Assembly: GCF_023973145.1 (NCBI RefSeq)
Contig: NZ_CP099546.1
Location: 1,922,001 to 1,986,000 of the forward strand
Direction: 5' to 3'
Source of the DNA: Natronosalvus vescus
Lineage (GTDB): Archaea > Halobacteriota > Halobacteria > Halobacteriales > Natrialbaceae
DNA: 64,000 nt
The position numbers were made by a program, and so were the translations under genes. Shown here piece after piece: positions 4,157-29,726 of this stretch. Below the pieces are notes generated by a model that saw only the letters and a program-made list of their open reading frames with translations, ran no database searches and was not told the origin of the DNA. Within the stretch, counting starts at the first letter, position 1. The number at the start of each line of letters is the position of its first letter.

Positions 4157-5287
4157 CTACGGCGGCGTCTCCCACTCGAGACACCGAAGCTGTCCGTCCT
4201 CCGTCCCGACGAACAGCCGTCCGGTTTCGGCGGGTGCGTGGGTCGCCCCACTGCCGGAGGTTGCCGCACGGGAACCGCCGTCGAAAACGGGCGCTGGCGT
4301 TCCCGCCACGCCCGACTCGAGTGGCAAGTGCCACCGAAAGTCCGGGTCGGTGGCGTCGACGCCGTAGAGCCCACCCGTCCCGTCGCCGACGATGACGACG
4401 TCTCCGGCGACGACCGGATCGGTCGTCGGGGTACCGTCGAGCGGGAGCCCCGCCTTCGAGAACAGAAGGCCCCGGAGCTTCCGGTTGCCGAACGTCGTAT
4501 CGGTGACGTGGAGGGTGTCGTCGTCGGCGGCGACGAACAGCGTGTCGTCGCCCTCGAGCACCGTGGGTGCGGAGGTGAAGCCACCACGAATTTCGTAGGT
4601 GAACCACGTCCGGCCGTCTTCGATACCGAGGGCGAGCAGCGTCCCGTCTGAGTCGGCGACATACGCGCGGTCGTCCGCGAGCGTCGGCCCACCGACGACC
4701 GTGCCGTCGGTCGGTACGCTCCAGACCGTCTCGCCCGAGCCGAGCTCGAGGGCCTGTACCTGCTCGTTCTGGGTCGCGACGTACACCTGTTCGTCGTCGA
4801 CGGCAGGCGCACCCACAGGAGTTCCCTCGAGCGTCGCCGTCCAGATCGCCTCGCCGGTTTCCGCTCGAAGGGCCAGCAGGCCGTCGGAGTTCCCGACGAG
4901 GAGCAACCCGCCGTCGAGCGTCGGCGGCGTCGTGTACAGCCCCTCGACCGGTCGCTCCCATTCGAGGGTACCCGTGGGGGCGTCGATGGCGACGAGGGTG
5001 TCGGCCAGACAGCACACGACCCGGTGGCCGCCGACGGCCGGGGCGAGCGTCGTCGAAGCGGTCGTCTCGTACACCCAGCGACGCCGCCCCTGGTAATCGA
5101 CGGCGTAGAGGTGGCCGTCGGCCGTCCCGACGTAGACCGTGTCGTGGTCGACGACTGGGGGGCAGCGAACCGGGCCGCGGAGATCGGTCGTCCAGGCGTC
5201 GGCCGGCCTCGCCTCTGGCCCCGTGAGATCGCGACCAATTCGTCCCGTGTTGTGCTCGTCACCCCGAAACTGGTTCCACTCGCTCAC
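4157..5287 (-). CDS. PQQ-type beta-propeller repeat protein
   Basis: About 376 residues made of propeller blades with the recurring pattern YVGTADGHLYAVD...RRWVYET, LLLVGNSDGLLALRAETGEAIW and YVATQNEQVQALELGSGETVW. These are PQQ-like (BamB/Pyrrolo-quinoline) repeats; cofactor binding is not shown. The start is uncertain. GTG 5287 gives the N-terminus VSEWNQFRGDEHNTG, with a TATA-like CTTATG about 26 bases upstream and a GGATGG purine stretch close by. ATG 5314 would add nine residues. I see no hydrophobic signal peptide in either version, so it may be cytoplasmic. It lies 97 bases downstream of the HNH promoter region and is divergent from it; it does not look coupled to the mutase gene downstream. 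Confidence 0.8.
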   Translation of the reverse strand: MSEWNQFRGDEHNTGRIGRDLTGPEARPADAWTTDLRGPVRCPPVVDHDTVYVGTADGHLYAVDYQGRRRWVYETTASTTLAPAVGGHRVVCCLADTLVAIDAPTGTLEWERPVEGLYTTPPTLDGGLLLVGNSDGLLALRAETGEAIWTATLEGTPVGAPAVDDEQVYVATQNEQVQALELGSGETVWSVPTDGTVVGGPTLADDRAYVADSDGTLLALGIEDGRTWFTYEIRGGFTSAPTVLEGDDTLFVAADDDTLHVTDTTFGNRKLRGLLFSKAGLPLDGTPTTDPVVAGDVVIVGDGTGGLYGVDATDPDFRWHLPLESGVAGTPAPVFDGGSRAATSGSGATHAPAETGRLFVGTEDGQLRCLEWETPP

Positions 5288-5435
5288 TGGCCATCCTTTC
5301 GGGTGACTGGGCATAAGACCGGCGAACTCGAGTGTGTCCACAGCCCCAACCGGGGCGCAGTACCTGGAGCGGAGCGCTTTTGCCTCGCCGGTGTGAGTTC
5401 GACTCGTGGAACCAGGATCAGGGCCGGGAACGCGA

Positions 5436-6263
5436 ATGTGGGAGGCCGATCGCGCGGCGGTGTTCGACCGCGACACCAGGACGTGTCGACACTGCGAACG
5501 GACGCCGAGTACGTCAGGCACGTCGGGCCTTCGGGTGGCGGCCGTCGGCGACGTTCCGCTGCAAGGAACGGTTCACGAGAGCGCACTCGTGACCCTCTGC
5601 GATGCCTGTTTCGAGATCCTTCACGGTACCGAACGGACGACGATCGACACGCGTGAGGCGCTCTTCGAGACGATTCGATCCGCTACCAACCGCCAGAGCG
5701 AGGCGATTTCGACCGTCGCCGTGTTCGCGTCGCTGGCGACGACGGTTCCAGCGGCGATCGAGGAGGACGACGACCCCGACTACGTCGCCCACCGCCAGGA
5801 CGCCCACCTCGTCCTCGCCGTCGTGGACGCGACTCTCGAGCAACTCGAGGCACTCGTCGGATCGGATGCGCTCGAGGCGCTCGATCCGGGCACCGAACCC
5901 GATTCCGATCTCGACTCGGCTCTCACAGCGTTCTGCGAAAGCGCGACGACGCTCCAGAACGAGCTACGAGAGGTGATCGACCTCGCGGAGGTCGTCGCCG
6001 TCGGTCTCGGACGCTGCCAGGGTTGTTTCGAACCGCTCGAGGTCGACCCGGATCCTGAGACTGGCGCGCAGTCAGCAGCTACTCGTCCGTGCTCGACCTG
6101 TGGCCTCGAGCCGCGCGATATCGGGGCGTGGCGGCGCGACGACGGTACCGTTCGCTTCAACGACCTTTTTGGAGCGATCAACGCCGCTTTACAGGGCAGT
6201 TCGGCGACGACGACGACGCTCACCGCCCGGACGCAAGTGGTTGCCGAACGGCTGCTCGAGTGA
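5436..6263 (+). CDS. HNH-like zinc-cluster protein
   Basis: 275 residues starting at the ATG of MWEADRAAVFDRD. Near the N-terminus a CxxC pair (CRHC, about residue 16-19) and a second pair LCDACFEILHG (about 57-67) resemble the zinc frame of HNH endonucleases that begin with an AVFxRDxxxCxxC pattern. The middle is acidic and helical. The C-terminal third holds another four-cysteine site (CQGC near 195 and CSTC near 218), probably a zinc ribbon. Whether the nuclease is active cannot be judged, since the catalytic His of the motif is not obvious. It is divergent from the propeller gene. Upstream start at 5406 (ten extra residues) is possible. Confidence 0.65.
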   Translation: MWEADRAAVFDRDTRTCRHCERTPSTSGTSGLRVAAVGDVPLQGTVHESALVTLCDACFEILHGTERTTIDTREALFETIRSATNRQSEAISTVAVFASLATTVPAAIEEDDDPDYVAHRQDAHLVLAVVDATLEQLEALVGSDALEALDPGTEPDSDLDSALTAFCESATTLQNELREVIDLAEVVAVGLGRCQGCFEPLEVDPDPETGAQSAATRPCSTCGLEPRDIGAWRRDDGTVRFNDLFGAINAALQGSSATTTTLTARTQVVAERLLE

Positions 6264-6338
6264 TCGGTCGAGCGCTCTCGGATCTGTTGGCTCGGTCAAA
6301 AGACGGTGACTGTGTGGTGTGTCGAACTGGCTCGAGGG

Positions 6339-6447
6339 TTCAGCGATGCAGCGATGCCGCATTTAAGCGGTTCAGCGGTGCCGCATTTCAGTGGGTCAGC
6401 GGATCAACGGATCAGCGGATCGGCAGATCAGTGGGTCAGCAGTTCAG
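6339..6447. repeat. Degenerate short tandem repeats around TCAGCGG
   Basis: About 110 bases built of imperfect 8 to 10 base units of the type GGTTCAGCGG or GGATCAGCGG. A longer unit, CGNTGCCGCATTT-AG, occurs at 6352-6367 and again at 6376-6391. TCAGTGGGTCAGC occurs near 6388 and 6428. The array runs up to and just into the stop of the CBS gene. Confidence 0.7.
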
Positions 6448-22979: not shown

Positions 22980-23201
22980 ACGCACCGCTGTCCGTCGCAG
23001 CACATCGGCTTTGTGGTATCAGGGTTCGAGAACATTTGCCGTCGGTGTCGCCGGGTACGTCCGGGCTCTCACCGCCGACTCGAGCGCTGACGAGGATGGG
23101 TAGTCGTGTGACCGGTGCTGTCCGGCCTGTCCGGGTACGAGAACGTAAGCGGAAGCGGAACGGTACCATATCTTCATCGTGTTCGAGTCGAATGAGCGCG
23201 T

Positions 23202-24002
23202 ATGCCGGTCGAGAAACTCTACCGTCTGAACACCGCCACGTGGACGCTCGATTACAGTGCAGCAACCCAACTGCAACAGCCAGGTGAACCGTTCCCGGGC
23301 TGGTGTCCGTGTTACCTACTCGAGCACCCGGAGGGACTCGTCCTCGTCGACACCGGGGTCAGCCACGAGATGGCCGAGGATCCGCTGTCCTACGGCCCAC
23401 AGGGTGCGCCACATATGGTCGACTTCGTCGACACACTCGATCTCTCGACGGGGAAGATGCCGACGGAACACCTCGCCGACCTCGGCTACGAGCCCTCGGA
23501 CGTGGACACGATCGTCATGTCCCATCTGCACACCGATCACGCGGGGAACCTCGACGCGTTCCCCGAGGCGACCGTCGTGGTCCAGAAGGACGAACTCCGG
23601 TACGCGTTCTGGCCCGACGGCGCCCAGCGTCTCTTCTACCTCGAGGGGGACTTCCACCACCTCCGTCGACTCGACGCCGACGTCGTCGCCGTCACCGGGG
23701 AGTACGACGTCTTCGGCGACGGTAGCATCGTCGCCTTCCCCACGCCGGGCCACAGCCCCGGCCACCAGTCCGTCGAGGTTCGCCTCGAATCCGGTACTGT
23801 GATCCTCGCTGGCGACGCGGCCAACAGCCGCGTCGGCTACGAACAGGGGCTCGTGGCTGCGTTCGCGTGGTCGCTCGAGGAGTCGATCGATTCGCTGACG
23901 GCGATCGAAACGCGGGCGCGGCAGGCCGATGCAGACGTCATCGTCCACCACGATCCCGAGGATCAGGGACGATTGCCGGAGCCACCGAACGCGCTCCACT
24001 GA
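23202..24002 (+). CDS. Metallo-beta-lactamase fold hydrolase (AHL lactonase-like)
   Basis: 266 residues with the motif HLHTDHAGN at about 107-115 (HxHxDH, zinc site). Downstream are FPTPGHSPGHQS (third metal His, about 181-192), AGDAA and a C-terminal His-rich VIVHHDPED. The N-terminus CPCYLLEHPEGLVLVDTG is the usual first strand pair. The layout matches the quorum-quenching N-acyl-homoserine lactonase group (AiiA-like), but in archaea the substrate may be another lactone or thioester. It lies upstream of the terpene synthase gene on the same strand, 269 bases away, with a likely promoter between them. Confidence 0.82.
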   Translation: MPVEKLYRLNTATWTLDYSAATQLQQPGEPFPGWCPCYLLEHPEGLVLVDTGVSHEMAEDPLSYGPQGAPHMVDFVDTLDLSTGKMPTEHLADLGYEPSDVDTIVMSHLHTDHAGNLDAFPEATVVVQKDELRYAFWPDGAQRLFYLEGDFHHLRRLDADVVAVTGEYDVFGDGSIVAFPTPGHSPGHQSVEVRLESGTVILAGDAANSRVGYEQGLVAAFAWSLEESIDSLTAIETRARQADADVIVHHDPEDQGRLPEPPNALH

Positions 24003-24271
24003 TCGCCCTTCACCTGGTGGATGAGACCCGTTCTCGTCGGATTTCCGGCACTTGTTACCGTAAACAAACGGGAACATTTAATGGGTTCCCTGGCGGGATT
24101 GTGTGTACCGATCACAGTCATCGAATCGACGCCTATCGCGAACACGTGGGTGCCATTGGGACGAAGCGACCGTCACCACTCCCGTCCCTGTCCGATTCAA
24201 CGAGAACGTCCGCCACGATACGCTCGGTTCGCTCGTTCAGGCAACTGATCGTCCATCAACTGCTCAATCCC
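24003..24271 (+). other. Leader/intergenic region before the terpene synthase gene
   Basis: 269 bases. A TATA-like box inside an inverted repeat lies at 24070-24090. A transcript from it would start near 24105. This leaves either an untranslated leader of about 167 bases before ATG 24272, or a leaderless in-frame GTG start at 24101 that would add 57 residues. The added residues are basic and Ser/Arg-rich, unlike neighbouring proteins, so I favour a leader. Confidence 0.45.
24070..24090 (+). promoter_or_regulatory. TATA-like box enclosed in an inverted repeat
   Basis: GGGAAC (24070-24075) and GTTCCC (24085-24090) flank ATTTAATGG. A protein bound to this dyad would block TBP, so it is a plausible repressor site for the terpene synthase and regulator genes. 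Confidence 0.45.
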
Positions 24272-25252
24272 ATGCCACTCACGGACATCGACCTCACGGA
24301 GTCATCGCACCTCGAGAACATCGACCGGTGTTCGTTGCCTGCGCACCTGACTGAGGTTATCGACGCGTACGAGGCCGTCGGTGGCGAGCGAGACCGGTTC
24401 CTCTGGCAGTGGCTGTACTACGTTTTCCCGACGATCGAACTCTCCTGTGTCGAACCGGATGCCAGCCAGCAGGTTCGCGAGGTGAAGTTCCTGGCGTCGA
24501 TGTACGTCGTCGTTCTTGACGACCTCGCCGAGGCCGCGAAGGATCAGCGAACGTTCCAAGAGGCGTCGAAGATCCCGTTCGATCACCTCGAGCCCGATAT
24601 CGACGATCCGGCCGTCGACGCGGATCGGGTCGCGTTCGCAGTCGCGGTCTGGGAACGCGTCATGGCGACCCTCGAGAGCGCCCCACGGGGGTCGACGTTC
24701 GAGGACGTGTTCCTGTTCGACATCGCGCAGACACACACCGCGATCGAGTACTCTGCGCTCGTCAACCGCCATCTCGAGCTGGCGACGGTGGAGTCGATCA
24801 CGGCCTACGACAGCTACAACATGATGTTGTTCACCTACGCCGACATCGATCTCTGCTTTGGGCCAGCGTTCGATCGAAACGAAATCGGTTCGCTTCGCCG
24901 GATCACGAGGCGCGCACAGATGATGGCTCGCATCGGGAACTGGGTGACGACCTGGGAGCGAGAACTTCGTGAGGGTGATTACAGTTCGGGGGTCGTGATC
25001 GCCGCGCTGGAAGACGGTGTGGTTTCACGTGAGCAGGTGCGTGCGTGTGGCGACGACGCTGAAACGACGGAGGCGTGTATCGACGCCATCGCCGACGCAG
25101 GGATCGAATCCCGGTTTCTTCATCAGTGGGATACACACTATCAGGAGATCAAACGTCTCGCACCGGCACTCGAGAGCGTCGACGTCGATGCGCTATTAGG
25201 GGGATTGGAAACGCTGCTCGAGTGTCATCTGGTCAGTCGGGGGCACAAATGA
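24272..25252 (+). CDS. Probable class I terpene synthase family protein
   Basis: 326 residues, helical throughout, with no membrane segment. The aspartate-rich metal motif appears as VVLDDLAEA, with DDxxE at 83-87. The second metal site appears as NWVTTWERE at 223-231, with N223, T227 and E231 filling the N-x3-S/T-x3-E pattern. The spacing of 140 residues between the sites and the total length match bacterial class I cyclases. I do not see the usual pyrophosphate-sensing Arg about 46 residues before Asn223, nor a C-terminal RY pair, so catalysis is not certain. It would act on a prenyl diphosphate in the cytosol. A regulator gene follows after 42 bases. ATG 24272 is preferred; GTG 24101 is the alternative. 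Some haloarchaea are known to carry such proteins, with unknown products. Confidence 0.7.
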   Translation: MPLTDIDLTESSHLENIDRCSLPAHLTEVIDAYEAVGGERDRFLWQWLYYVFPTIELSCVEPDASQQVREVKFLASMYVVVLDDLAEAAKDQRTFQEASKIPFDHLEPDIDDPAVDADRVAFAVAVWERVMATLESAPRGSTFEDVFLFDIAQTHTAIEYSALVNRHLELATVESITAYDSYNMMLFTYADIDLCFGPAFDRNEIGSLRRITRRAQMMARIGNWVTTWERELREGDYSSGVVIAALEDGVVSREQVRACGDDAETTEACIDAIADAGIESRFLHQWDTHYQEIKRLAPALESVDVDALLGGLETLLECHLVSRGHK

Positions 25253-25294
25253 CGGCTGGAACACCGCTGCACATCGACTACACGGAGGGTATCA

Positions 25295-26071
25295 ATGAGT
25301 GACAGACCGAACACGGATGGATCGAGGGAATTCGTTTCGACGGTCATGAGTCGCGCGGAACTGCTCGAACGGCTCGAGGAGTCACAGACGGTACGCGAGC
25401 TCGCAGACGAACTGTCGATGGCGCGCTCGACCGTCCACCGGGTGACCGAATCGCTCGAGGAACACGACCTGGTCGAGAAACCTAACGAACACATCGAACA
25501 TACCGGCCTCGGCACCGTCGTCGCGGCGGAACTCCAGACGTTGCGTACAAAATTGGAGGCTGCCCAACGGCTCGAACCGTTTTTGAATACGCTCAATGGC
25601 GAGGTAACGGACATCCCGCTCGAGCGGTTTACCGACGTGACGGTCACCCAGTCACAACACCGGCAAGCACACGTTGGTGCCAAGCGCATTACGGATCTCA
25701 TCGAACGTACCGACTCGCTGCGAATGTTCTCGAGTATCATCTCGCCGCTGTACGTGGACGTCGCCCTTCGGGAGATGCTGAACGGCACCGAAATCGACGT
25801 GATCTTCGATCAGGAAATTATCGGCGTCGTGGCCGAGCAATACTACGACCAAGCCCAGGAAGCGCTCGAAACAGGCCGGTTTGGACTACACATGACCGAC
25901 GACGTCCCGTTCGAACTCTTCCTCTTTGACGACCGGATGGGGATGGCTGCCCACGACGACGACGGGATCGCTCGTGCGTTCGTCGAGTCGACCGATCCTG
26001 CGGCCCGTGAGTGGGCCGAATCGCTCTATGCGGAGTACGCCAGCGAGGCCGAAACGGTCACGTTTGGCTGA
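25295..26071 (+). CDS. Winged-helix transcriptional regulator (haloarchaeal HTH plus C-terminal domain)
   Basis: 258 residues. An N-terminal helix-turn-helix lies at about 30-75, where TVRELADELSMARSTVHR is the recognition region, followed by a wing ending near EHTGLG. The C-terminal domain (about 110-250), with the segment DVTVTQSQHRQAHVGAKR and the late FELFLFDDRMGMAAHDDDG and AREWAESLYAEY, is shared with the regulator at 34561. This is the haloarchaeal HTH plus methanogen-regulatory (DUF1724-like) layout. The gene is 42 bases after the terpene synthase and most likely in its operon, so it may autoregulate the pair. Ligand unknown. Confidence 0.8.
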   Translation: MSDRPNTDGSREFVSTVMSRAELLERLEESQTVRELADELSMARSTVHRVTESLEEHDLVEKPNEHIEHTGLGTVVAAELQTLRTKLEAAQRLEPFLNTLNGEVTDIPLERFTDVTVTQSQHRQAHVGAKRITDLIERTDSLRMFSSIISPLYVDVALREMLNGTEIDVIFDQEIIGVVAEQYYDQAQEALETGRFGLHMTDDVPFELFLFDDRMGMAAHDDDGIARAFVESTDPAAREWAESLYAEYASEAETVTFG

Positions 26072-26538
26072 GTTGGATCGATGGAACCGGCAGGGGCGAC
26101 CACACCAGGTCTCCTCACTTCTTCGTCTCGGGTAGTGACCGCCGAGTTGCGACCGAAGTGGCGATCAATAGAACGCAAGGAGGAAGCCCAGGAATCCGAC
26201 GGGCGGACTAACCGGCCGTGACTGGGCTGACTCGCCCGACGCTCGAGCGATCGATACGCATCCGAACCCCGCGAGTGGTTCTCGAGTCAGCGACAGGATG
26301 AACCCACATCTGGACTCGAACTCGATCGCCTGCCGTGGCCAACGCTGTTTTATTTATGTAACAAATTCGATTTCTGCACAACTATCGATTGAAACACAAC
26401 ATCCGATCAGTGATAACCGTCTGGTTTTTCGAAGAAATATACCGTCGAATTTAACACCACGGTCGGTGTGAAATTGGACAGCGGAGACCACCAGAAGTAC
26501 GACGACTGATCCTGGTGTCGCTCCAAACTTACCCAGTC
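26072..26538. other. Gene-poor stretch turning AT-rich
   Basis: 467 bases after the regulator. The first 270 bases are GC-rich with no credible ORF. From about 26345 the sequence turns AT-rich (a run with TTTTATTTATG and later AATTTAACACC near 26447), likely promoter DNA for the HalOD1 gene, though the best TATA-like site is about 90 bases from its start. No RNA gene seen. Confidence 0.4.
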
Positions 26539-26850
26539 ATGAGGCACCCTGACACCACCCCATTGCCAACGAGAATCGGTTCGGACACCGAGAGCGAGGA
26601 GTTCACCGTCGACGACCGTGGCGCCTTGCTGTCGGTCGTCGATGCAATGTCCACGACGCTCTCGTGTACGCCGACCGATCTGGAACCGATTTACCACGAT
26701 GTCGACCCACCCGCTCTCGAATCGGTGATCGACCATCCCGGCCACCAGCACCTCTATTTCGAGAGCAACGGACTCGCCGTCACGATCTCGAGCGACGGCC
26801 GTATCGCCCTGGCACCGTTGGACGACGGGGCGAGTGCGGCCGGGAGCTGA
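26539..26850 (+). CDS. HalOD1 output domain protein
   Basis: 103 residues from ATG 26539. The core LEPIYHDVDPPALESVI and the C-terminal YFESNGLAVTISSDGRIAL pair match HalOD1 and align with the protein at 1863-2204. A GTG at 26515 could add eight residues. It stands alone between two intergenic stretches. No biochemical function is known for the domain when it occurs singly. Confidence 0.8.
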   Translation: MRHPDTTPLPTRIGSDTESEEFTVDDRGALLSVVDAMSTTLSCTPTDLEPIYHDVDPPALESVIDHPGHQHLYFESNGLAVTISSDGRIALAPLDDGASAAGS

Positions 26851-26997
26851 GGGGTACGAGCATCCGGGCAGCGGTGTGACTCGCCCCCTCGAGTGGGGTG
26901 ATTGGAACGTTCGGTTGCCGGGTAGCAACTTCGTTGTTCGTCGTCTTTCGTCCGTTGTCGGTCACCCACACTCGTGGGCACGTAGCTGGCGGTGACG

Positions 26998-27007
26998 ACT
27001 ATATTCC
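26998..27007 (+). promoter_or_regulatory. TATA box for the alpha/beta hydrolase gene
   Basis: ACTATATTCC is centred about 29 bases before ATG 27032 and supports that start over the ATG at 27074. Confidence 0.5.
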
Positions 27008-27031
27008 TGTATCGCAAAACGTCCCGCATAG

Positions 27032-27937
27032 ATGACACGCGGCCAGCACACTGACGCTTCCTTGCGTCCCGGAATGGACGTCACCTCGGTACACCTCCCC
27101 GGTGCCGACGTCGAACTCCACGCCGTGACGGCAGGGTCGCCGGACGACCCGCTCGTCGTCCTGTTGCACGGCTTCCCGGAGTTCTGGTACGGGTGGCACG
27201 CCCAGATCCAGCCCCTCGTCGACGCCGGCTTCCGCGTCCTCGTGCCGGATCAACGCGGCTACAACCTGAGCGAGAAACCGGATAGAATCGCCTCCTATCG
27301 TCTCGAGACGCTCTCGCGGGACGTCCGGGCGCTGATCAAGGCGCTCGGTGAGGAGTCCGCACACGTCGTCGGCCACGACTGGGGCGGCGGCGTCGCCTGG
27401 GATGTCGCCTTGCGCTATCCCGGGGTCGTCGACCGACTGGCGATCTGTAACGCGCCGCATCCAAGCGTGTTCCGCTCACACTTGCGATCGGACTGGCGAC
27501 AAATTCGAAAGAGCTTGTACATACTCTTTTTCCAGCTCCCGGCCGTCCCCGAGTGGGTGCTCAGTCGAAACGAGTACGACGCGCTGTGGACAGCGATGAC
27601 CGACCAGGCGGAGCCGGGATCGTTCACCCCTGCGGATCGACACGCGTACCGGCGAGCCTGGTCACAACCCGGCGCGCTCTCGGCGATGCTCAACTGGTAT
27701 CGCGCCTCGTTCCGGTACCAGAACCAGGACACCCCACCGCGAGAACGGATTTCCCAGCCGACGCTCGTGATCTGGGGCGAACAGGATTTCGCCCTGCGAT
27801 CGGAGATGGCTCTCGAGAGCATCGAACACTGTCAATCGGGCCGACTCGAGCGCTTCCCGAACGTCGGCCATTGGATCACCCACGACCGCCCGGACGCGGT
27901 CTCGAGGCTGCTCGTCGACCACTTTACCGCGGAGTAA
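27032..27937 (+). CDS. Alpha/beta hydrolase, epoxide hydrolase-like
   Basis: 301 residues. The oxyanion motif HGFPEFWYGWH is at about 47-57 and the nucleophile elbow GHDWGG at about 115-120, with Asp as nucleophile as in soluble epoxide hydrolases and haloalkane dehalogenases. A late acid (LVIWGEQDFAL) and the catalytic His in NVGHWITHD complete the triad. The cap domain runs through about 150-235. The Asp nucleophile and WYGWH pattern favour epoxide hydrolase. Substrate unknown; terpene or fatty epoxides are possible but unproven. Single-gene transcript with TATA box. Confidence 0.85.
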   Translation: MTRGQHTDASLRPGMDVTSVHLPGADVELHAVTAGSPDDPLVVLLHGFPEFWYGWHAQIQPLVDAGFRVLVPDQRGYNLSEKPDRIASYRLETLSRDVRALIKALGEESAHVVGHDWGGGVAWDVALRYPGVVDRLAICNAPHPSVFRSHLRSDWRQIRKSLYILFFQLPAVPEWVLSRNEYDALWTAMTDQAEPGSFTPADRHAYRRAWSQPGALSAMLNWYRASFRYQNQDTPPRERISQPTLVIWGEQDFALRSEMALESIEHCQSGRLERFPNVGHWITHDRPDAVSRLLVDHFTAE

Positions 27938-28040
27938 CTCAGAGAAACGACGAGTGACGTTCCGACTGCGACTCGTGGCCCGTTAGTTCGCCGGTCGGGC
28001 GACCGGTATCGTTTTGCACGCCGGTATCGCACAGTATCCC

Positions 28041-29726
28041 ATGATCCACGCCAGGGGATCGCTCTGTTCGATCGACCTCGACGAGCGAACCACGACCACA
28101 GAGTCCATCGACGACGTGCTCGAGTCCTACGTCGGTGGCCGCGCTGTCGGTACCAAACTCGCCTACGATCGGATCCCGTTCGACGCGGATTCGTTCGGCC
28201 CCGAGAACCGCCTGTACTTCGCTACCGGCCCGTTTCAGCACGCGACGATGAGCTTCACGGGTCGGATGTCGGCAACGGCGCTATCGCCGCTGACCGATGG
28301 GTTGCTCTCCTCGAACGCCGGCGGATTCCTCTCCCGGAACTTCACCGCGACGGGGTACGGGGCCGTCGAGATCACGGGCGCAAGCGACGACCTCGTGATC
28401 GTCCACGTCCGCGACGACGGCGTCGAGTTCGAGGCCGTTCCCGACCTCGAGGGGGCCGAAACGAGCGACATCTGTGCCTACATCGAGGACGAACACGACC
28501 TGGCGGCCGAACACACCGTCACGGTCGGGCCGGCCGGCGAGAACCGGGTTCGATTCGCCTCGCTCATGACCTCGCGCGAGCGGGCGTTCGGCCGCGGTGG
28601 CCTCGGAGCCGTCCTGGGGGCGAAGAACGTGAAGGCGATCACTTTCGACGGCGACTCGACGCCCGCGGTCGAGATTCCGCCCATCCAGATGGACGTCCAC
28701 CGGGAGGCCGCCCAGAGCGACCACATCATGAAACGCCAGGGGACGTCCTCGATGACGGAGTTCGCGAGCACCGTCAACGCGCTGCCGACCCGATACTTCT
28801 CGGAGCTCTCGTTCGAGGGTGCCGAGGGGATCAGCGGCGACCGCGTCGAAGAGAAGAAGTACAAGAAAGGCACCTGTTCGGCGTGTGCCTTCGCCTGCAA
28901 ACTCCCCACGCGCGACGAGGGGAGCGGCCTCGAGACCGAAGGCCCGGAGTACGAGACGGTAATGGCGTTCGGCTCGAACTCGGGTGTCGACGACATCGTG
29001 GACGTGATGCACTCGAACAAACGCTGTGACGAACTCGGGATGGACACCATCTCCTGTGGCGACACGGTCGCGGCGTATCTGGCCAGCGAGGACGCCTTCG
29101 GCGACGTCGACCTGATCCACGAAACCGTCGAGCAGATCGCCCACCGCGAGGGCATCGGCGACACCCTGGCGGAGGGCGTCGCCCGCTGTCACGACGACCT
29201 CGAGGTCGAGGACTGGAGCGTCAAAGGCATGGAGTTCCCCGCTCACGACGGACGGACGCTCAACGGCCAGGGGCTGGCGTTCGCCACCTCGAACCGCGGG
29301 GCCGATCACATGTACGCAGAGTTTTACTCGCTCGAGTATCCGCTGGTCGACGAGAAGCAGGCTCTGGACAAGGAGGGACTGGATGGAAAGCCCGCCAAAG
29401 TCGTCGAGAAGGAAAACCTGAACGTGATCAAAGACAGCGCGGTGCTGTGTAAATTCTCCCGGGATTTCGTCGACGCCGACCGCCTCGAGACCCTGCTCGA
29501 TGCCGACTACGACGACCTGCTCGAGATCGGGGGCGAGGTCGTCGCGATGGAACGCCACTTCAATAACCAGCGCGGGATGGATCGGGCCGACGACCGCCTG
29601 CCCTACGAACTGGATGGGTTCGAGGACGCGCTCGACGCCTACTACGAGGAGCGCGGCTGGAACGACGACGGGACAGTTCCTGCCGAGGCTATCGACGGCG
29701 ATGCGGCGATTTCGACCGCGGACTGA
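28041..29726 (+). CDS. Tungsten-containing aldehyde:ferredoxin oxidoreductase
   Basis: 561 residues, slightly shorter than the hyperthermophile AORs of about 600. The CxxCxxxC set of the 4Fe-4S cluster appears as CSACAFAC with Cys279, 282 and 286, and the distal Cys is in AVLCKF near 470. The N-terminal domain has RAFGRGGLGAVLGAKNVKAI (about 183-202), the typical tungstopterin-contacting stretch. It would oxidise aldehydes to acids and reduce ferredoxin in the cytosol. Haloarchaea carry several paralogs. Substrate is not deducible. ATG 28041 gives MIHARGSLCSIDL, as in relatives; an upstream GTG/ATG adds nine residues. Followed by a convergent permease-like gene. Confidence 0.88.
   Translation: MIHARGSLCSIDLDERTTTTESIDDVLESYVGGRAVGTKLAYDRIPFDADSFGPENRLYFATGPFQHATMSFTGRMSATALSPLTDGLLSSNAGGFLSRNFTATGYGAVEITGASDDLVIVHVRDDGVEFEAVPDLEGAETSDICAYIEDEHDLAAEHTVTVGPAGENRVRFASLMTSRERAFGRGGLGAVLGAKNVKAITFDGDSTPAVEIPPIQMDVHREAAQSDHIMKRQGTSSMTEFASTVNALPTRYFSELSFEGAEGISGDRVEEKKYKKGTCSACAFACKLPTRDEGSGLETEGPEYETVMAFGSNSGVDDIVDVMHSNKRCDELGMDTISCGDTVAAYLASEDAFGDVDLIHETVEQIAHREGIGDTLAEGVARCHDDLEVEDWSVKGMEFPAHDGRTLNGQGLAFATSNRGADHMYAEFYSLEYPLVDEKQALDKEGLDGKPAKVVEKENLNVIKDSAVLCKFSRDFVDADRLETLLDADYDDLLEIGGEVVAMERHFNNQRGMDRADDRLPYELDGFEDALDAYYEERGWNDDGTVPAEAIDGDAAISTAD

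Follow-up and report, generated by a model that had tools for sequence, protein, structure and literature searches.

A probable class I terpene synthase of a divergent archaeal branch in Natronosalvus vescus, encoded with a conserved regulator cassette

The locus lies in a 64,000-nucleotide stretch of the Natronosalvus vescus contig NZ_CP099546.1 (assembly GCF_023973145.1, positions 1,922,001 to 1,986,000), hereafter the window, to which all coordinates refer. An ORF at 24272-25252 encodes a protein of 326 aa (P0001) with DDLAE at residues 83-87 and N223, T227 and E231 in a second motif, the two motifs being spaced by 140 residues, and the ORF of an HTH regulator at 25295-26071 begins 42 bp past the synthase stop codon. 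On re-reading of the sequence, all of this agreed with the first-pass annotation of the locus. The features, with the evidence for each, are as follows.

24272..25252, + strand: probable divergent class I terpene synthase (P0001), 326 aa; motifs, predicted fold, family conservation and sequence links
24389..24412, + strand: R40-x6-W47, N-terminal positions; R40 and W47 invariant in alignments A1 and A2
24518..24532, + strand: DDLAE (83-87), predicted first metal-binding motif; conservation, and position where helix 62-87 ends in the model
24818..24823, + strand: N183-M184, probable linker/effector at the helix G break; conservation, model and analogy with Sat1646
24929..24931, + strand: R220, probable diphosphate sensor on helix H; invariance and analogy with Sat1646
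24938..24964, + strand: NWVTTWERE (223-231), predicted second metal-binding motif of the NSE/DTE type; N, W, T, W, R and E invariant
25295..26071, + strand: HTH regulator with HVO_A0261 N-terminal and FilR1 middle domains; Pfam domains and conserved downstream position
26515..26850, + strand: small HalOD1 output-domain protein, third gene of the cassette; PF18545, 47.4 bits

No RNA families were found in window positions 23000-27500. The upstream metallo-beta-lactamase gene at 23202-24002 (cluster C31), AHL-lactonase-like with a score below cut-off, was considered as a part of the cluster and rejected, being shared within the genus alone. Downstream of the cassette, an aldehyde ferredoxin oxidoreductase-family gene (28014-29726, cluster C32) was kept in the genus.

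The AlphaFold2 model of P0001 (pLDDT 92.7, pTM 0.91) consisted entirely of helices, in keeping with the helical protein described beforehand. In Foldseek searches against the PDB the model was closest to isoprenoid synthases, with E-values of about 1e-4 to 1e-3 and TM-scores of about 0.5-0.62, the matches including FPP synthases, a Streptomyces type I diterpene synthase, hydropyrene, tolypothrichol and T-muurolol synthases, and Sat1646. The predicted fold was thus isoprenoid, where the first-pass annotation had named a non-isoprenoid fold as the outcome that would speak against it. Among viral structures the best match, an Orpheovirus terpenoid synthase, was not significant. The similarity to the PDB entries was moderate and FPP synthases matched P0001 as well as terpene synthases did; fold alone does not set the two groups apart, and motifs and sequence do. 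That P0001 is a trans-isoprenyl diphosphate synthase of the FPP/GGPP synthase kind, as the FPP synthases among its top Foldseek matches would allow, is highly improbable, since PF00348 matched none of 30 family members, the second motif is of the NSE/DTE type instead of a second DDxxD, and the Pfam and PDB sequence links point to terpene synthases. The PF00348 matches in the own genome, three polyprenyl synthases, were all at loci other than 24272-25252.

As to these sequence links, PF19086 (Terpene_syn_C_2) matched 29 of 30 members at E-values up to 1 (best 1.7e-7), and P0001 itself reached 20.8 bits, under the gathering cut-off of 23.7, which fits its lack of annotation; none of the NCBIfam models matched it. 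A PF19086 search of the own genome gave no match, with its controls unmatched as well. The sole PDB sequence match of P0001 was Sat1646 (phmmer E-value 3e-4), for which the profile of alignment A1 returned an E-value of just 0.12. When the family was compared by hhalign with alignment A3, composed of ten canonical class I terpene synthase sequences, an E-value of 2.5e-4 over 243 columns was obtained at a probability of just 43%, and the ten-sequence alignment was required, as the A2 profile showed no link to a single canonical synthase sequence. At the sequence level, the links by PF19086, Sat1646 and hhalign are faint, independent and in agreement.

Conservation was read from alignment A2, which comprised 37 diverse members of the synthase family. 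Residues D84, R220, N223, W224, T227, W228, R230, E231 and D236 were invariant, D83, N183 and M184 were each conserved in at least 90% of the sequences, and residue 87 was E or D throughout, so that the first motif is kept as DDxxE/D. With key residues invariant in 37 diverse relatives, the two motifs in P0001 are not there by chance. The signature of the second motif region was RIxNWxxTWxRE. The NSE/DTE consensus is (N,D)Dxx(S,T)xx(K,R)(E,D), of which NWVTTWERE keeps N, T, R and E, whereas its second position is Trp family-wide instead of Asp.

The first-pass annotation had seen neither the diphosphate-sensor Arg nor the C-terminal RY pair of class I terpene synthases. In the canonical alignment A3 a helix-G sensor Arg (R191) and the RY pair (R325-Y326) were invariant, and both were absent from the 37 members in A2; the loss of the RY pair therefore stands, and a sensor Arg is probably present on another helix. 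Sat1646 and Stt4548 are class I pimarane-type diterpene synthases (PDB 7e4n), and Sat1646 has its sensor, R220, on helix H and N182-Y183 at the helix G break (PMC9814573). The phmmer alignment of P0001 with Sat1646 was ungapped from residue 193 to 270, hence R220 and N223 bear the same numbers in both proteins, and NWVTTWERE is aligned with NDLASYERD. Since R220 stands three residues before N223, as in Sat1646, the sensor Arg reported as missing is probably R220. The model of P0001 has a helix break at residue 185, between helices 173-184 and 186-195, and by analogy R220 would probably act as diphosphate sensor and N183-M184 as linker/effector.

Sat1646/Stt4548 and P0001 have in common a similar fold with DDxxD-type and NSE-type motifs, and further share, with probable counterparts in P0001, the helix-H sensor Arg three residues before Asn and the Asn linker at the helix G break. 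They differ in sequence (16% identity in the structural match), in W224 for Asp and in Met for the Tyr effector, and copalyl diphosphate (CPP), the substrate of Sat1646 (PMC9814573), is unlikely for P0001. A diterpene synthase acting on CPP like Sat1646 would account for the only PDB sequence match and for the common helix-H sensor; this reading is most improbable, as the own genome held no PF13243 (SQHop_cyclase_C) protein in a search with a positive control. Judged by this one search, a class II cyclase in the genome is unlikely, and three polyprenyl synthases with no SQHop_cyclase_C would make linear prenyl diphosphates likelier substrates than CPP. With the canonical synthases (pentalenene, T-muurolol, hydropyrene; PF19086) the P0001 family has in common the isoprenoid fold and the two metal motifs. 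P0001 differs from them in being without the helix-G sensor Arg and the RY pair and in scoring under the Pfam cut-off; together with W224 for Asp, this accords with the divergent branch that had been proposed.

Homologues were present in 40 of the 149 related genomes searched, and by profile search the family occurred in 120 of 391 Halobacteria genomes (39 of 86 genera). Its spread over the Halobacteria was patchy, and broken copies occurred occasionally. When 84,980 species genomes were scanned, 80 loci were recovered, nearly all haloarchaeal, the non-haloarchaeal MAG contigs being labelled Methanohalobium, Methanofollis, Candidatus Thermoplasmatota and one unnamed archaeon; in a quick, midpoint-rooted tree the non-haloarchaeal contigs formed one branch and the haloarchaea the other. 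Two family contigs labelled bacterial had a GC content of 30-31%, and the Lysobacteraceae label of the low-GC contig is very probably due to mis-binning. All six members found in public plasmid annotation were named 'hypothetical protein'. Natrialba chahannaoensis carries two synthase copies in tandem (L088 / G086:C14:19376-21710), and in the copy of Haladaptatus pallidirubidus (L089:4962-5942) the very codon of the invariant Trp224 is replaced by a stop, which marks a pseudogene or a sequencing error.

The pairing with the HTH regulator, noted beforehand for this locus, was conserved across loci and extends to the HalOD1 gene. The regulator matched HVO_A0261_N with 60.2 bits and FilR1_middle with 113.8 bits, both above cut-off. 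It was located downstream on the synthase strand in 11 of 39 related loci, from four families by the coding of the search, with gaps of 42-156 bp in the aligned loci (G097, with a broken synthase frame, left out), and in each of the 11 regulator-paired loci 0.8-1.7 kb lay between the synthase and a HalOD1 gene. Two Halorussus plasmids showed an identical gene order, in which the regulator overlaps the synthase gene or starts 1 bp after it. A close homologue of the regulator (E-value ≤1e-40) was found in just 15 of the 149 genomes and was synthase-adjacent in 11 of these; at an identity of at least 42% there were 12 genomes, with the homologue beside the synthase in 11 (exception G068). Four congeners listed without the synthase were also without a regulator homologue. 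As the own genome has eight FilR1_middle matches in total, the pairing is specific. No convincing operator emerged when the upstream region was compared with those of three congeners, as the upstream stretch of the window was not alignable with theirs. By comparison of loci, the synthase, the FilR1-type regulator and the HalOD1 protein are a conserved dedicated cassette in the group of the window, with a putative regulatory role.

A non-catalytic protein of isoprenoid fold that serves a signalling system by binding or as a scaffold would suit both the genomic link to signalling and the lost RY pair, but is very unlikely, as few positions of the family are better conserved than the metal ligands, which would be needless without catalysis. 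Fold, both metal motifs, family conservation and the faint sequence links to class I synthases agree in supporting the earlier terpene-synthase reading, and P0001 is taken with good confidence to be a divergent archaeal member of the class I terpene synthases, with predicted catalysis and, next to it, a dedicated regulator cassette. Speaking against this are the Pfam score below cut-off and the lack of an NCBIfam match, the weak A1 link to Sat1646, the moderate structural similarity shared with FPP synthases, the lost RY pair with W224 for Asp, and the housekeeping neighbours in most Natrialbaceae. From conservation, motifs, predicted fold and gene linkage we infer how metal binding, substrate, catalysis, cyclisation and regulation might proceed. 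P0001 would be a soluble, Mg-dependent enzyme that uses an allylic prenyl diphosphate, most likely GGPP or FPP supplied by the polyprenyl synthases of the cell. Three Mg ions and the diphosphate group of this substrate would be bound by D83/D84/E87 together with N223/T227/E231. Departure of the diphosphate would be triggered by R220 and N183-M184 once they have sensed it, and the carbocation would then cyclise or be quenched, giving a terpene hydrocarbon or alcohol. The FilR1-type regulator and the HalOD1 protein would most likely set the timing of synthase expression.

In other lineages the synthase adjoined bat-type PAS-GAF-BAT-HTH_10 proteins, PAS-HATPase kinases, 7TM histidine kinases or HalOD1 genes, and sensor neighbours were shown independently by RefSeq annotation in Salinigranum, Halobaculum and Halobellus. 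After loci were collapsed at 55% identity, 19 of 30 clusters had a sensor, regulator or HalOD1 gene no more than two genes away from the synthase. With the same detection at all distances and the background rate of sensor genes taken from the loci themselves, signalling genes occupied 26 of the 106 positions up to two genes from the synthase vs 5 of the 118 more distant ones (Fisher p about 1e-5, an optimistic value since the signalling classes were chosen after the neighbours had been inspected). Natrialbaceae outside the group of the window mostly had a housekeeping neighbourhood without a sensor. Most members were without a biosynthetic partner, and a free-standing synthase was the usual arrangement. 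Two members, in L125 and L140, do have isoprenoid genes nearby, which speaks for the terpene synthase reading.

Several single loci are recorded here as well. In a contig binned as Lysobacteraceae (L125:195-5055, 30% GC, label doubtful) a split HisKA_7TM/HisKA/HATPase kinase lies beside the synthase, the order being methyltransferase, synthase, 7TM kinase pieces and polyprenyl synthetase. In an archaeal MAG (L131:3676-5960) a gene with a ligand-sensing FIST domain ends at the first base of the synthase ORF, another sensor-synthase pair, and a protoglobin-MCP transducer gene (L146:5992-7620) is located 50 bp downstream of a divergent member. A further metallo-beta-lactamase-fold gene (cluster C1, e.g. 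L054:9883-10596) is divergent and directly upstream of the synthase in 22 loci of set 1, an arrangement seen in most Natrialbaceae.

The family-wide linkage to sensors and regulators hints at controlled or signal-like terpene production. The synthase could make a terpenoid autoinducer, perceived as a ligand by the regulator or PAS sensor next to it, and this proposal, which concerns purpose and is therefore compatible with a terpene synthase, draws on the enrichment of sensor, regulator and HalOD1 genes within two genes of the synthase, on neighbouring sensors unrelated in architecture (bat-type, PAS-HATPase, 7TM kinase, FilR1) and on the lack of any other consistent biosynthetic partner. It is nevertheless unlikely: sensors that merely control expression predict the same linkage, most Natrialbaceae copies have no sensor neighbour, and the p-value is optimistic. 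A widespread archaeal terpenoid signalling, with the terpene sensed by neighbouring PAS, bat-type, kinase or FilR1-type proteins and HalOD1 as output, is a more far-reaching and decidedly doubtful extension.

Apart from the terpene synthase family of P0001, haloarchaeal fusions of SRPBCC and terpene synthase domains (Halocatena, Actinarchaeum, YIM A00010) also have a class I domain, and one of them adjoins a family member. Unlike P0001, these carry a canonical PF19086 domain (157-172 bits) fused to Polyketide_cyc2, near polyprenyl synthetase genes. In L140 the canonical terpene synthase scored 171.7 bits, and about 0.9 kb separates the adjoining family member from it and from a polyprenyl synthetase. 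Such fusions were seen at L140:2578-4017 (-), L164:4001-5440, L165:2871-4262 and 5001-6422, and in G076 and G255, and RefSeq names them 'SRPBCC family protein' or hypothetical. Non-canonical terpene synthases of classes IB-IF were likewise cryptic among hypothetical proteins and were found by fold, and one of them, PeuTPS, is not near other terpene genes (PMC11234867). The P0001 family shares this concealment among hypothetical proteins; classes IB-IF are without known class I motifs, whereas the P0001 family keeps the DDxxE/D and NSE-type motifs. In Halomicroarcula, antiSMASH 'terpene' clusters have been described and terpenes in Archaea called reported once before (PMC8600319); these haloarchaeal clusters may be carotenoid or squalene genes.

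In the open-access literature searched, no class I terpene synthase from archaea was found to have been characterised. Archaeal membranes are built from isoprenoids, and cyclic terpenes are, to our knowledge, hardly known in archaea. A large, intact and unannotated family in about a third of the sampled haloarchaeal species, with relatives also in MAGs that carry methanogen and Thermoplasmatota labels, would give access to the terpene chemistry of archaea. If the signal reading were true, the archaeal synthase and its sensors would play the role that autoinducer synthase/receptor pairs have in bacteria, and the repeated linkage to sensors and regulators makes the use of terpenes in response to signals, or as signals, directly testable in archaea.
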